From an uncultured Eubacteriales bacterium (GTDB lineage Bacteria > Bacillota > Clostridia > Oscillospirales > Oscillospiraceae): a stretch of DNA of 64,000 nucleotides. Where the stretch lies: assembly GCA_900316745.1 (NCBI GenBank), contig ONEB01000002.1:30194-94193 (forward strand), in the 5' to 3' direction. This document shows, one piece after another, positions 4,107 to 52,409 of the stretch (its first letter is position 1; each line of letters starts with the position of its first letter). The notes under the pieces are model-generated. The model worked only from the letters and a program-made list of their open reading frames with translations, had not been told where the DNA came from and made no database searches. The translations under genes and the position numbers were made by a program.

Positions 4107-4132
4107 GTTACTGTCTTTTTGAAGTTCATATC

Positions 4133-4261
4133 GCATCGGTATATCACAAATAATATGGTTTTGCAGTCTCTACCCGGTCGCCGTAAATGACCGGACTATC
4201 GATGATCCCCGCGCGTCGGGGACAGTCATCTGCGAAAGCCATATCAGCTTTCGCTTTTTTT
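4133..4261 (+). promoter_or_regulatory. Guanine-type purine riboswitch with terminator platform
   Basis: Aptamer: P1 CATCG (4134-4138) pairs with CGATG (4200-4204). P2 CAAA/TTTG carries the loop AATATGG. J2/3 is AGTCTCTACC (4165-4174; consensus AGTTTCTACC). P3 CCGGTC/GACCGG (4174-4179/4189-4194) carries the loop GCCGTAAAT. The specificity base in the GGACTAT joint is C (4196), as in guanine/hypoxanthine sensors rather than the U of adenine sensors. The expression platform is a terminator hairpin GCGAAAGC/GCTTTCGC (4232-4254) with a T run, so purine binding should switch transcription off. It controls the following nucleoside transporter. Confidence 0.93.
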
Positions 4262-5515: not shown

Positions 5516-5530
5516 TCCATCCAACTTCAA

Positions 5531-5567
5531 ACACAAGCTCCGGCTTACCCCGGAGCTTGTGTTTTCA
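5531..5567 (+). terminator. hairpin after nupN (intercistronic terminator/attenuator)
   Basis: 13-bp stem 5531-5543/5550-5562 followed by TTTT. It lies inside the operon, 15 nt after the binding-protein stop, so it probably reduces read-through and leaves the binding-protein mRNA in excess. Confidence 0.75.
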
Positions 5568-5568
5568 A

Positions 5569-5721
5569 AATCAACAAGCATTTCCCATGGATATGCTTGT
5601 TGATTCGATACCGCCAATATTTTGGCTATGCCAAAAAGAAAATGTTTGCACAACAAACATTTTCGGCGGTGTTGTATCGGATTCGAGGCGGGCCTTGCCC
5701 CCTCGAGCTCCCCTGCTGCTC
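5569..5721 (+). repeat. Structured repeat family 1, copy A (three-way junction element)
   Basis: In order: hairpin P0 (AATCAACAAGCA/TGCTTGTTGATT, 5569-5580/5594-5605), CGAT, closing stem ACCGCC/GGCGGT (5610-5615/5665-5670), small hairpin TTTTGG/CCAAAA (5620-5625/5631-5636), long hairpin GAAAATGTTTG/CAAACATTTTC (5638-5648/5654-5664), a 10-nt spacer, then a 41-nt conserved end at 5681-5721 that itself folds (TCGAGG/CCTCGA). The conserved end matches 52216-52256 in inverse orientation at 39 of 41 positions, with 30 consecutive identities. The other hairpins differ in sequence from copy B but keep pairing and spacing. It lies between nupN and nupO, sense to the operon. Confidence 0.85.
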
Positions 5722-11725: not shown

Positions 11726-14500
11726 TCACTTTTCTGCTGTTTTGGCCTGATATAGCTTCATCAGTTCCGCGACACAGCTTGATTCCGTCGTGTCTTTGAT
11801 AGACATACCATAGGCCTGCATAACAGCGCGATCATTGTTTTGATGAGCCTGCAACAATTCAGGGAATAAATACATTTCATCGCCGTACATATCCGCTAAA
11901 CAGTTATCAGGATATAGTTTTCGCGCATCAAGGATTGCCTGCGCCGTTCGTTCAATTCTTGCCCGCTGTTCATCAGTTACATCAGGGAACGGGAAATTAT
12001 AATACACGGACGGAGCATAACGATAATCGTTTTTTAACCTGCCTGCTATTGTCCGCATCCATGAATTATGGACGTTGGAGCAGATTATTCCAAACTCATA
12101 TAGGCTTGCGTTATATACAAGCACAGCAGAATCACTTGCTATTACATCAGGGGGCAAGAAACCTATCGGTATATAGCGCCGTCCCGATGACGAAACGCGC
12201 GGAATAATAAGATAATCCGTTTCGGGCTGTCGATTTTGCGTAAACAGGAACGGCTTGTCTGCCGTTTTCTGGATCCTGTCAACGGGGCTTTTAAGCCTGT
12301 ATTCACGAATATAGTTAAACCGTTCTATCAATTCAGGAATATGTTTAAACTTGTTAGGACTGACACCAACGAACCAAAAACAATAGCGGCTATAACCCAC
12401 ATCGTTGATGAATTCCCGGCTTCCAATAAAAGGCTTTATAACTTCATCCAATTCAGGATATTTTGATAGCAGAGCCGCCCGTTCGCCTGCTGATAATAAT
12501 AGGCGGCCATCATCGGCGGGCGGGCTACCCTGAACAACCTTTGCAAGCCCTTTGTTAATGCTTTTACTTCTGTTTTTGATAAACACATCCGGGGCGGGCT
12601 TTAAGTAACCGTTTATGTGGACAACGATCTTATATTGTTCACCCGAAAACAGCTTTTTGGTTTCTCTGTTAATATACGAGAAACCAACAATAACGCACAT
12701 AACGGCTGCCTTTTCTTTCGCTTCACTTGTCCACTTAAAAGTGGTATGGGCAAAGTTTATAATAATGCCGTCCCCTAATAACATTTCCCAAAGCAGATTT
12801 ACAGATTCGCCCTGACAAATAGAGTTTGAAGAAACAAATGCGGCTTCTGCTTTGCTGTTTTTCATAAAATCAGCAGCTTTTTTGAACCATCCTGCGACAT
12901 AGTCCAGTTTCCCGCCTGCGTTTGATGGTGCAAAGACAGCCTGCATATCATCCGCTTGTGTTTTTGTTCGCATTGCCTGCCCGACAAACGGCGGATTGCC
13001 CATGATATAATTCAGGGAATACTTGGGAACCACACTTTCCCAATCAATGCGCAGGGCGTTCCCCTCAACAATAGAAGCATTTGTTTTTAGGGGCAGGAAA
13101 TCAAGAGGCATAAGAACAATATCTTCTGTCTCTTTCATCATTTGACTTTCAGCAATCCAAAGCGCGGTCTTGGCGACCGTGACCGCAAAATCATTGATTT
13201 CTATACCGTAAAACTGGCTGATTGATACCTGTATCGGGCTGTTGTTTGCATCGCCGAAAGCCATCTGCCCGCGCATCAAAAGCGCAAGCACTTCATTTTC
13301 CAGACGGCGCAGCGATAAATATGTCTCGGTTAAAAAATTCCCGCTGCCTGCCGCCGGATCCAAAAACGACAGCGACGCAAGTTTTGCCTGAAATCCCCGC
13401 AGCTTTCTTTCCTGCGTTTTTATAACGGTTATGCCCTTGATTTCCTCAAATTCTTTTTTCAAATCATCAAGGAACAGCGGGTCAATGACTTTGTGTATAT
13501 TTTCGATAGAGGTATAGTGCATCCCGCCGGAACGCCTTGTTTCCGGGTTCAATGTGCTTTCAAAGACCGCGCCGAAAATTGTCGGGCTGATTTCAGACCA
13601 ATCAAAATTTTCGCTTGCTTTCACTAACAGCAATTCCCGGATTTCATCGGTAAATTGCGGGATTTCAATTTCTTCATCCGCAAACAGCCCGCCGTTGACA
13701 TAGGGGAACTGTGCAAGTGACTGCTTCAAATAGGGGCTTCTATCCTCAATCTTTGTATCGAGCACGCGGAAAAGGCGCACAAGAGCTTCCCGCAAATCCT
13801 CTGTGTCATATTTGGCGAGATAATCATGGAACATTTCGCGCTTGCCAAATATTCCGGCGTCCTCTGCATACAGGCAGAACACGAGACGGACGCACAGTTT
13901 ATTCAGGCTTTTCAGCGTTTGTTCATTTGACGGGTCAATATACTGTTTCAGGAACGCATCATAAATCAGACCGACGATTTCGCCCGCCTGAATGGATATT
14001 TCCATTTCCCGCCGCAAATGCACATTGCCTGTATCGACAAGAAATGAAAGCCTGTAATACTCTTTTTCCAAATCCGCTAACTGTATCTTTTCAGGTTCGC
14101 CGCCGGGCTTTTCCATGTCATAGACATAGAATTCCCCAAAATTGCAGGTGACAACCCAACGCGGATGCTTTGAAAGGGGCAGTTCGGTAATATAACGCTT
14201 TGCCTGTTGGAACGGCGTAAGCAGGGAACCGTCTGATTGCTTTATGGGCTTGTTCAAATCCTTGCCGAGCCCTTTCTGTTCAATCAGCACTTTCGTTTCC
14301 GGGATAAAGCCGTCTATAAAGCTGGTGTGGTCTAAATGCACCTGTTCTTCAAACAGGATAAAGTGCTCGGGATGTTCCACCCCGTACACATCACGAAGCA
14401 GGGAGAGCCAAAAAGACTGGCTTTCCCCTTTTTCATATCCTTTGCCTTTCCAATGCGCCGCGAAAGCCTTAGCCGCCGTCCGCTGCTGTGCGTCTGTCAT
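11726..14500 (-). CDS. Fused type IIG/MmeI-like restriction-modification enzyme
   Basis: 924 residues. The N-terminal domain has FIDGFIPETKVLIEQKG with Asp63 and Glu74-x-Lys76, the PD-(D/E)xK layout seen in MmeI-like enzymes, followed by QAKRYITELP. A helical connector precedes a gamma-class N6-adenine methyltransferase: motif I DPAAGSGNF (near residue 380) and motif IV NPPF (near 503). The C-terminal ~300 residues would be the target-recognition domain. One protein would both methylate one strand and cut nearby DNA. The gene is clearly AT-richer than its neighbours, uses different codons and has no partner genes, suggesting horizontal acquisition. Cleavage activity is inferred; it could be methylation-only. 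Confidence 0.88.
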   Translation of the reverse strand: MTDAQQRTAAKAFAAHWKGKGYEKGESQSFWLSLLRDVYGVEHPEHFILFEEQVHLDHTSFIDGFIPETKVLIEQKGLGKDLNKPIKQSDGSLLTPFQQAKRYITELPLSKHPRWVVTCNFGEFYVYDMEKPGGEPEKIQLADLEKEYYRLSFLVDTGNVHLRREMEISIQAGEIVGLIYDAFLKQYIDPSNEQTLKSLNKLCVRLVFCLYAEDAGIFGKREMFHDYLAKYDTEDLREALVRLFRVLDTKIEDRSPYLKQSLAQFPYVNGGLFADEEIEIPQFTDEIRELLLVKASENFDWSEISPTIFGAVFESTLNPETRRSGGMHYTSIENIHKVIDPLFLDDLKKEFEEIKGITVIKTQERKLRGFQAKLASLSFLDPAAGSGNFLTETYLSLRRLENEVLALLMRGQMAFGDANNSPIQVSISQFYGIEINDFAVTVAKTALWIAESQMMKETEDIVLMPLDFLPLKTNASIVEGNALRIDWESVVPKYSLNYIMGNPPFVGQAMRTKTQADDMQAVFAPSNAGGKLDYVAGWFKKAADFMKNSKAEAAFVSSNSICQGESVNLLWEMLLGDGIIINFAHTTFKWTSEAKEKAAVMCVIVGFSYINRETKKLFSGEQYKIVVHINGYLKPAPDVFIKNRSKSINKGLAKVVQGSPPADDGRLLLSAGERAALLSKYPELDEVIKPFIGSREFINDVGYSRYCFWFVGVSPNKFKHIPELIERFNYIREYRLKSPVDRIQKTADKPFLFTQNRQPETDYLIIPRVSSSGRRYIPIGFLPPDVIASDSAVLVYNASLYEFGIICSNVHNSWMRTIAGRLKNDYRYAPSVYYNFPFPDVTDEQRARIERTAQAILDARKLYPDNCLADMYGDEMYLFPELLQAHQNNDRAVMQAYGMSIKDTTESSCVAELMKLYQAKTAEK

Positions 14501-52215: not shown

Positions 52216-52409
52216 GAGCAGCGGGAGAGCTCGAGGGGGCAAGGCCCGCCTCGAATTTGATCTATCGTCGCCGCAAGCCATTGAAAAGCCAGGCTTTTCA
52301 ATGGCTTGCTGATTGCGAGGCAATCATATTGGCGACTGCGAATCTTGTCAAAAGCCGAAAGGCTTTTTGACAAGATTGCCCGAAAGCGCGCCGAAACGCG
52401 CTTTCGGGG
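52216..52409 (-). repeat. Structured repeat family 1, copy B
   Basis: Minus strand, sense to the operon. First a separate 12-bp hairpin CCCGAAAGCGCG/CGCGCTTTCGGG (52380-52409) after the binding-protein stop. Then P0 AATCTTGTC.../...GACAAGATT (52341-52377), CGCA, closing stem GTCGCC/GGCGAC (52331-52336 with 52267-52272), AATAT, small hairpin GATTGC/GCAATC (52311-52325), a single A, an 18-bp hairpin (52273-52309), a 10-nt spacer and the 41-nt conserved end (52216-52256). Against copy A, spacing matches and two closing pairs change together (A-T to G-C, C-G to T-A). Confidence 0.85.

Follow-up and report, generated by a model that had tools for sequence, protein, structure and literature searches.

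A probable non-autonomous IS1182-family element flanked by duplicated terminator hairpins in an Oscillospiraceae genome and its relatives

The structured repeat that occurs twice in the window (the whole 64,000-nt stretch of DNA analysed here) is very probably a non-autonomous element (MITE) of the IS1182 family whose insertion duplicates an entire terminator. Its fixed ends and its duplicated targets make a transposable element, and not an RNA class, the best reading. The 29 clean insertions described below form a natural series in which the length of the duplication follows that of the hairpin, and provide comparative evidence for structure-guided integration by a DDE-type transposase; the full IS1182 elements with closely similar ends supply material on which such integration can be tested. 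The element also suggests a route by which bacteria may gain an additional terminator while retaining the old one, and it carries a warning for RNA discovery: a DNA transposon may give rise to a multi-copy family with excellent covariation.

Ends, flanking hairpins and distribution

In the rumen genome RUG11929, identity among near-identical copies stops at CAGCTTGTCAAAAAAGTC on the left and at TTTTTTGACAGTCTC on the right, and several copies have an identical terminator-like hairpin on each side (for example AGAAAACGCCTCCGGGATTCCTCCCGGAGGCGTTTTCT, which stands twice around L074). Less decayed copies are about 200–220 nt long, with the ends CAGCTTGTCAAAAAA...TTTTTTGACAGTCTC. Sufficient flanking sequence was available for 117 copies (those in named genomes having been selected by an exact 21-nt tail pattern), and after 57 that lacked one or both recognisable ends were dropped, 60 were analysed. 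Their length is 196–220 nt in 55 and 173–250 nt in all 60, a size at which the element would have no transposase gene of its own.

The two flanks resemble each other beyond the 99th percentile of mispaired flanks in 40 of the 60 copies; in 36 of these the matching stretch is no more than 2 nt from either end, in the other 4 it is 14–20 nt from an end, and the remaining 20 copies are without clear duplication. Hairpins lie directly against the left end of 46 copies, against the right end of 42 and against both ends of 33; when each flank was letter-shuffled once, the counts were 0 and 0 of 60. Among the 33 two-sided pairs, 30 clearly consist of one hairpin in two copies (inverted relative to each other in L117 and L120), one is partly alike (L146) and two are different (L132 and L140). 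Defined as at least 15 nt with no more than 8% mismatch and within 2 nt of both ends, clean duplications are present in 29 of the 60 copies and measure 22–41 nt; 28 of these 29 are hairpins with feet 0–3 nt from where the duplication begins and ends, and the two lengths correlate at r 0.98. One copy elsewhere in the window's own genome (L011) retains both duplicates with a single mismatch.

Some copies stand in arrays. The tandem array L093 (SVKO01000009.1) has three copies with a period of 222–223 nt, that is, a 196-nt element plus a 26-nt duplication, although the left part of the first unit differs; such arrays could arise by repeated insertion at a duplicated hairpin or by recombination between duplicates. 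By eye, the short forms L098, L099, L029 and L025 seem to have no junction, and three of them (L025, L029 and L098) also stand between duplicated hairpins, so the junction seems dispensable for insertion. A short form also occurs in tandem at G009:C10:2038-2298, with three copies of the tail spaced exactly 111 nt apart.

The genes beside 56 copies are convergent in 21 cases, on the same strand in 30 and divergent in 5. Frames of at least 100 aa overlie 15 of the 60 elements according to a crude frame caller, so an intergenic location is not proved for all copies.

A first-pass annotation of the window had described a new structured repeat, and its numbers show that it is no chance likeness. 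A 61-nt tail query found 8 copies in the window's genome (a 2.44-Mb draft in 39 contigs; two further tail matches there, at E 0.13 and 1.6, were excluded from the count), 16 in G006 and 21 in G009 (both of the same genus), 2 each in G005 and G013 and 1 in G027, or 6 of 60 genomes with its own included. The 21-nt tail pattern occurs in at least 119 stretches in named genomes; among the matches listed (80 records), 76 are named as Clostridia-type bacteria, mostly metagenome bins, and one is a Bacteroidaceae bin (L125). Matches in Siccirubricoccus, Methylobacterium and Marinobacterium (L055, L103 and L108), whose surroundings are not conserved by eye, were taken as chance. With a query running from the tail to the right end, the element was found in 44 of 400 genomes of the window's bacterial family and 22 of 106 genera; phylum-wide, the same query matched 2 of 398 genomes, namely the window's own and one with a 23-nt match that was taken as chance. 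One IMG/VR contig (L169) has the whole element, and a single phage record, of 4.7 kb and labelled 'Bacteriophage sp.' (MT838946.1:1798-1847), matches the tail over 50 nt at 98%; plasmids gave no tail match at E 1e-5.

IS1182-family partners, related systems and a possible mode of insertion

Searches for IS1182-type transposases returned 48 loci, most of them without visible duplication and many truncated by contig ends. Five (L184, L188, L192, L195 and L196) are full elements of 1.50–1.58 kb with a transposase frame and the ends CAGnnTGTC..GACAnnCTG, and each stands between two copies of one whole hairpin (inverted relative to each other in L188). They are like the repeat in their closely similar ends and in the duplication of a whole terminator, and unlike it in their length (1.5–1.6 kb), their transposase frame and the absence of the tail: the 20-nt tail core, with up to 4 substitutions allowed, is in none of the five, and the junction model gave a single partial match among them (L196, E 0.16). 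The left end of L184 agrees with that of the element in 15 of 15 letters and its right end, TTCTTTGACAGGCTG, agrees with TTTTTTGACAGTCTC in 12 of 15, the right end being slightly different (CTC in the element, CTG in the IS). NCBIfam places the longer frame of L184 among the IS1182-family transposases (296.7 bits against a cut-off of 270), and the same genome also carries the element (L140).

Other loci were less informative. At L170, L174 (the same place as L206), L203 and L212, with the ends GGGGCTGTTGAC or GGGGCTGTGAAAA, a script found no hairpin at the ends; these are weak negatives, since the same script placed the ends of the five full elements inside their flanking hairpins (other end placements were used for those five). 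Two different hairpins stand at the ends of L197 and one hairpin at L173/L191 and at L198, while at L183 only one side could be judged. A decayed IS1182-type element of about 740 nt (L175, in G037:C18), with the ends AGACTGTCAAAAAACT..TTCTTTGACAGTCTG, lies between two different hairpins.

The element and an autonomous IS with matching ends were found together in one genome, G064. Searches for a PF13751 transposase came up empty in the window's genome, G005, G006 and G009 (drafts of 39–310 contigs with 2–21 copies of the element each), so mobilisation there would need a transposase that was lost, was missed or is of a different kind. Five other genomes bearing the element were searched, of which three have a PF13751 match and one, G064, has the IS with matching ends.

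Long, variable duplications are given for IS1182 in ISfinder. Within the same family, IS1272 and TnSha1 aim, like our element, at hairpins and do so with an IS1182-family transposase; the available parts of the two papers describe hairpin targets without sequence consensus (PMC4923244; PMC5678879), five of them termed confirmed terminators (PMC4923244). In those parts the target hairpin is deleted or replaced and target duplication is not reported (PMC4923244; PMC5678879), whereas the element described here duplicates the whole hairpin, 30 of 60 copies having the same hairpin left and right. Thus, of the two features of an IS1272-type insertion, the hairpin target recurs here and deletion of the hairpin without duplication does not (29 of 60 copies have clean duplications). 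For IS1272, Wan and colleagues did draw a possible pathway b in which a whole stem-loop would be duplicated (PMC5678879); in the text at hand, then, whole-hairpin duplication is proposed for IS1272 and not demonstrated. Not every IS1182 element appears to duplicate hairpins: ISPse1 of Paracoccus belongs to the same family, and its row in a table of PMC3281130 ends in 4, which we take as a 4-bp duplication. BOX, RUP, SPRITE and other bacterial MITEs are likewise small and gene-less, some with terminator-like structure (PMC10969869), and in the portion of that review available to us the term IS1182 is absent and hairpin-length duplication is not mentioned. Among the literature surveyed by title and the start of the abstract, no paper describes a comparable MITE or an IS1182 element that duplicates a whole hairpin.

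We propose that an IS1182-family transposase may recognise the terminator once it is extruded as a hairpin or cruciform, and would then presumably join the 3' ends of the element where the stem-loops have their two 5' feet; repair would copy the entire hairpin, so that the duplication would be as long as the hairpin. The cruciform step is put forward with less confidence than the element itself. DDE transposases normally make a short stagger of fixed length. A further proposal, which we offer tentatively, is that the target is chosen by DNA shape alone: the cut would be made at the base of the extruded cruciform, which brings the two 5' feet next to each other; being constant in space, this cut would appear in the linear sequence as a duplication equal in length to the hairpin (22–41 nt), and the branched interior of the element would be a DNA-level fold that aids end pairing or the binding of a host factor.

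The interior fold and what may maintain it

The first-pass annotation had pointed to compensatory changes between the two copies, and these extend to the wider family. In an alignment of 39 copies of the main subfamily (A1), 46 pairs are paired in 95.9% of cases and double changes occur at 26 of the 46; none of 500 shuffles reached any of five covariation measures, and structures slid along the alignment pair at 43–54%. The fold used for this test was taken from the same alignment, which was obtained by reducing the 60 copies to 50 by similarity or the presence of N and then leaving out 11 with misplaced ends, a deleted interior or membership in another subfamily (L015, L017, L063, L064, L074, L095, L105, L116, L136, L166 and L168). 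Invariance of the tail helix is not evidence here because the copies were partly chosen by their tail pattern. A model limited to the junction gives weak matches to other subfamilies (L051, L063, L092, L105, L116, L136 and L166, at E 5e-4 to 0.008), which are suggestive only, as antisense matches in the main subfamily score in the same range.

Such covariation, strong by all five measures, is what a structured ncRNA or a cis-regulatory RNA present in many copies (a mobile terminator, for example, or a 3'-UTR element) would show if the fold were kept because the RNA acts. The location of the copies fits this as well, many lying just 3' of genes (the median distance is 51.5 nt for 72 facing 3' ends and 70 nt for 40 facing 5' ends), and P0 and the long hairpin resemble bidirectional terminators by eye. 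The reverse strand, with its own predicted structure, also has a mild excess of G.T over A.C wobble pairs (30 against 21). However, the strand as written has no lean toward G.T (26 G.T against 32 A.C; p 0.51), whereas 16 distinct purine riboswitches of the same order have 14 G.T against 5 A.C; and the reverse strand folds equally well or better in 31 of the 39 copies. Copies between same-strand neighbours are sense to both in 20 cases and antisense to both in 10 (raw counts), and the short forms seem to do without the junction altogether. Rfam agrees with the earlier statement that the repeat belongs to no known RNA class: within the window it finds a purine riboswitch elsewhere and no family at gathering score for the repeat, and for L056, L101, L155 and L184 it gives four matches (E up to 0.5) that fall well short of their gathering scores. 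An RNA that acts as such is therefore, in our judgement, an improbable reason for the fold. The fold itself is kept, and nothing in these counts marks a single RNA strand as the thing that is kept; we infer that the fold is maintained as DNA or in transcripts of either strand.

The same pattern could also come about without selection, if mutation copied one palindrome arm into the other, and the first-pass annotation had likewise considered a mechanism that swaps palindromic tips. Inverted hairpin tips are indeed present between the duplicates of L117 and L120 (2 of the 33 pairs) and around the IS in L188, which lends slight support to tip swapping, and L146 has three double changes within one pair. 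The differences between duplicated hairpins are informative here because duplicates should start identical: across 16 diverged pairs (gapped pairs excluded) there are 4 double changes, 9 that are one-sided but still paired and 11 that break a pair, so that most are uncompensated, and three of the four double changes fall in that one pair. Tip inversion happens; arm copying is not the rule, and we consider it an unlikely cause of the fold as a whole. An origin as a REP/BIME-type element moved by a RAYT (Y1 transposase) is more remote by far. The repeat does resemble these systems in being a short, palindromic sequence with up to 21 copies per genome, but a search of 60 genomes for Y1_Tnp showed no link to it, with 0 matches in each of the two genomes richest in the element (G006 and G009) and one partial match in the window's own, and we rejected this origin; nor are duplications of hairpin length known from REPs. 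A transposable element with whole-terminator duplication remains the reading that we prefer.

Copies A and B and their surroundings

The two copies in the window (Table 1) have the parts that the first-pass annotation described, namely a shared tail (BLAST 95% over 41 nt, or 39 of 41) and the same order of parts about a three-way junction. The closing stem is ACCGCC/GGCGGT in copy A and GTCGCC/GGCGAC in the inverse copy, with double changes at two pairs. Model R1, a covariance model built with the window copies excluded, finds copy A (5609–5683, E 2.6e-7) and, weakly, copy B (52254–52337, E 0.035). It also scores the antisense of copy A (E 3.4e-4), because the fold is palindromic.

Table 1. 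Parts of the two copies of the element in the window and the hairpins beside them
Feature	Position	Strand	Basis or detail
Terminator-like hairpin AACACAAGCTCCGG..CCGGAGCTTGTGTT, presumed target, just 5' of copy A	5530..5563	+	Read from sequence and fold
Copy A, P0 hairpin, a decayed form of the element's left-end hairpin	5569..5605	+	Less decayed relatives begin CAGCTTGTCAAAAAA at P0
Copy A, three-way junction	5606..5679	+	Closing stem, 5606-5615 paired with 5665-5679; small hairpin at 5620-5636 and long hairpin at 5638-5664
Copy A, conserved tail hairpin CGAGGCGGGCCTTGCCCCCTCG	5684..5705	+	
Copy A, remaining conserved tail	5706..5721	+	
Copy B, inverse orientation; left end CAATCTTGTCAAAAAG starts at 52378	52216..52378	-	Sequence reading and tail match
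Terminator-like hairpin CCCGAAAGCGCG..CGCGCTTTCGGG, presumed target, directly abutting the left end of copy B	52379..52408	-	Read from sequence

The stretch originally marked out as the repeat is only part of the element, since in less decayed relatives the right end lies about 38 nt past the tail. By eye, a right end of the TTTTTTGACAGTCTC kind cannot be made out downstream of copy A, nor a right end for copy B, and each has a hairpin on one side only. As neither retains a recognisable right end, both are probably old, decayed insertions beside terminators.

Nine relatives were searched for the site of copy A, and in all seven same-genus genomes in which both flanks could be placed, the copy A tail is absent from the matching gap and the gap holds a hairpin. 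The gaps of G009 and G006 gave weak antisense matches to the junction model (E 0.015 and 0.059, respectively), with the tail missing. For L011, an empty site was sought in the relatives, where its two flanking genes are not adjacent. In G002, the 371-nt gap between the same two genes (L225, in G002:C31) carries a different hairpin-rich insertion at the matching place, perhaps another element attracted to the same site.

By eye, copy A lies between a gene for a BMP-type lipoprotein on one side and an ABC transporter gene on the other. Upstream of these two genes, at 4117–4218 (+), is a purine riboswitch (69.1 bits), a family present in 14 of the 60 genomes with the window's own counted. Further along, a 924-aa frame at 11726–14500 (-) resembles, by eye, an adenine-specific DNA methyltransferase.
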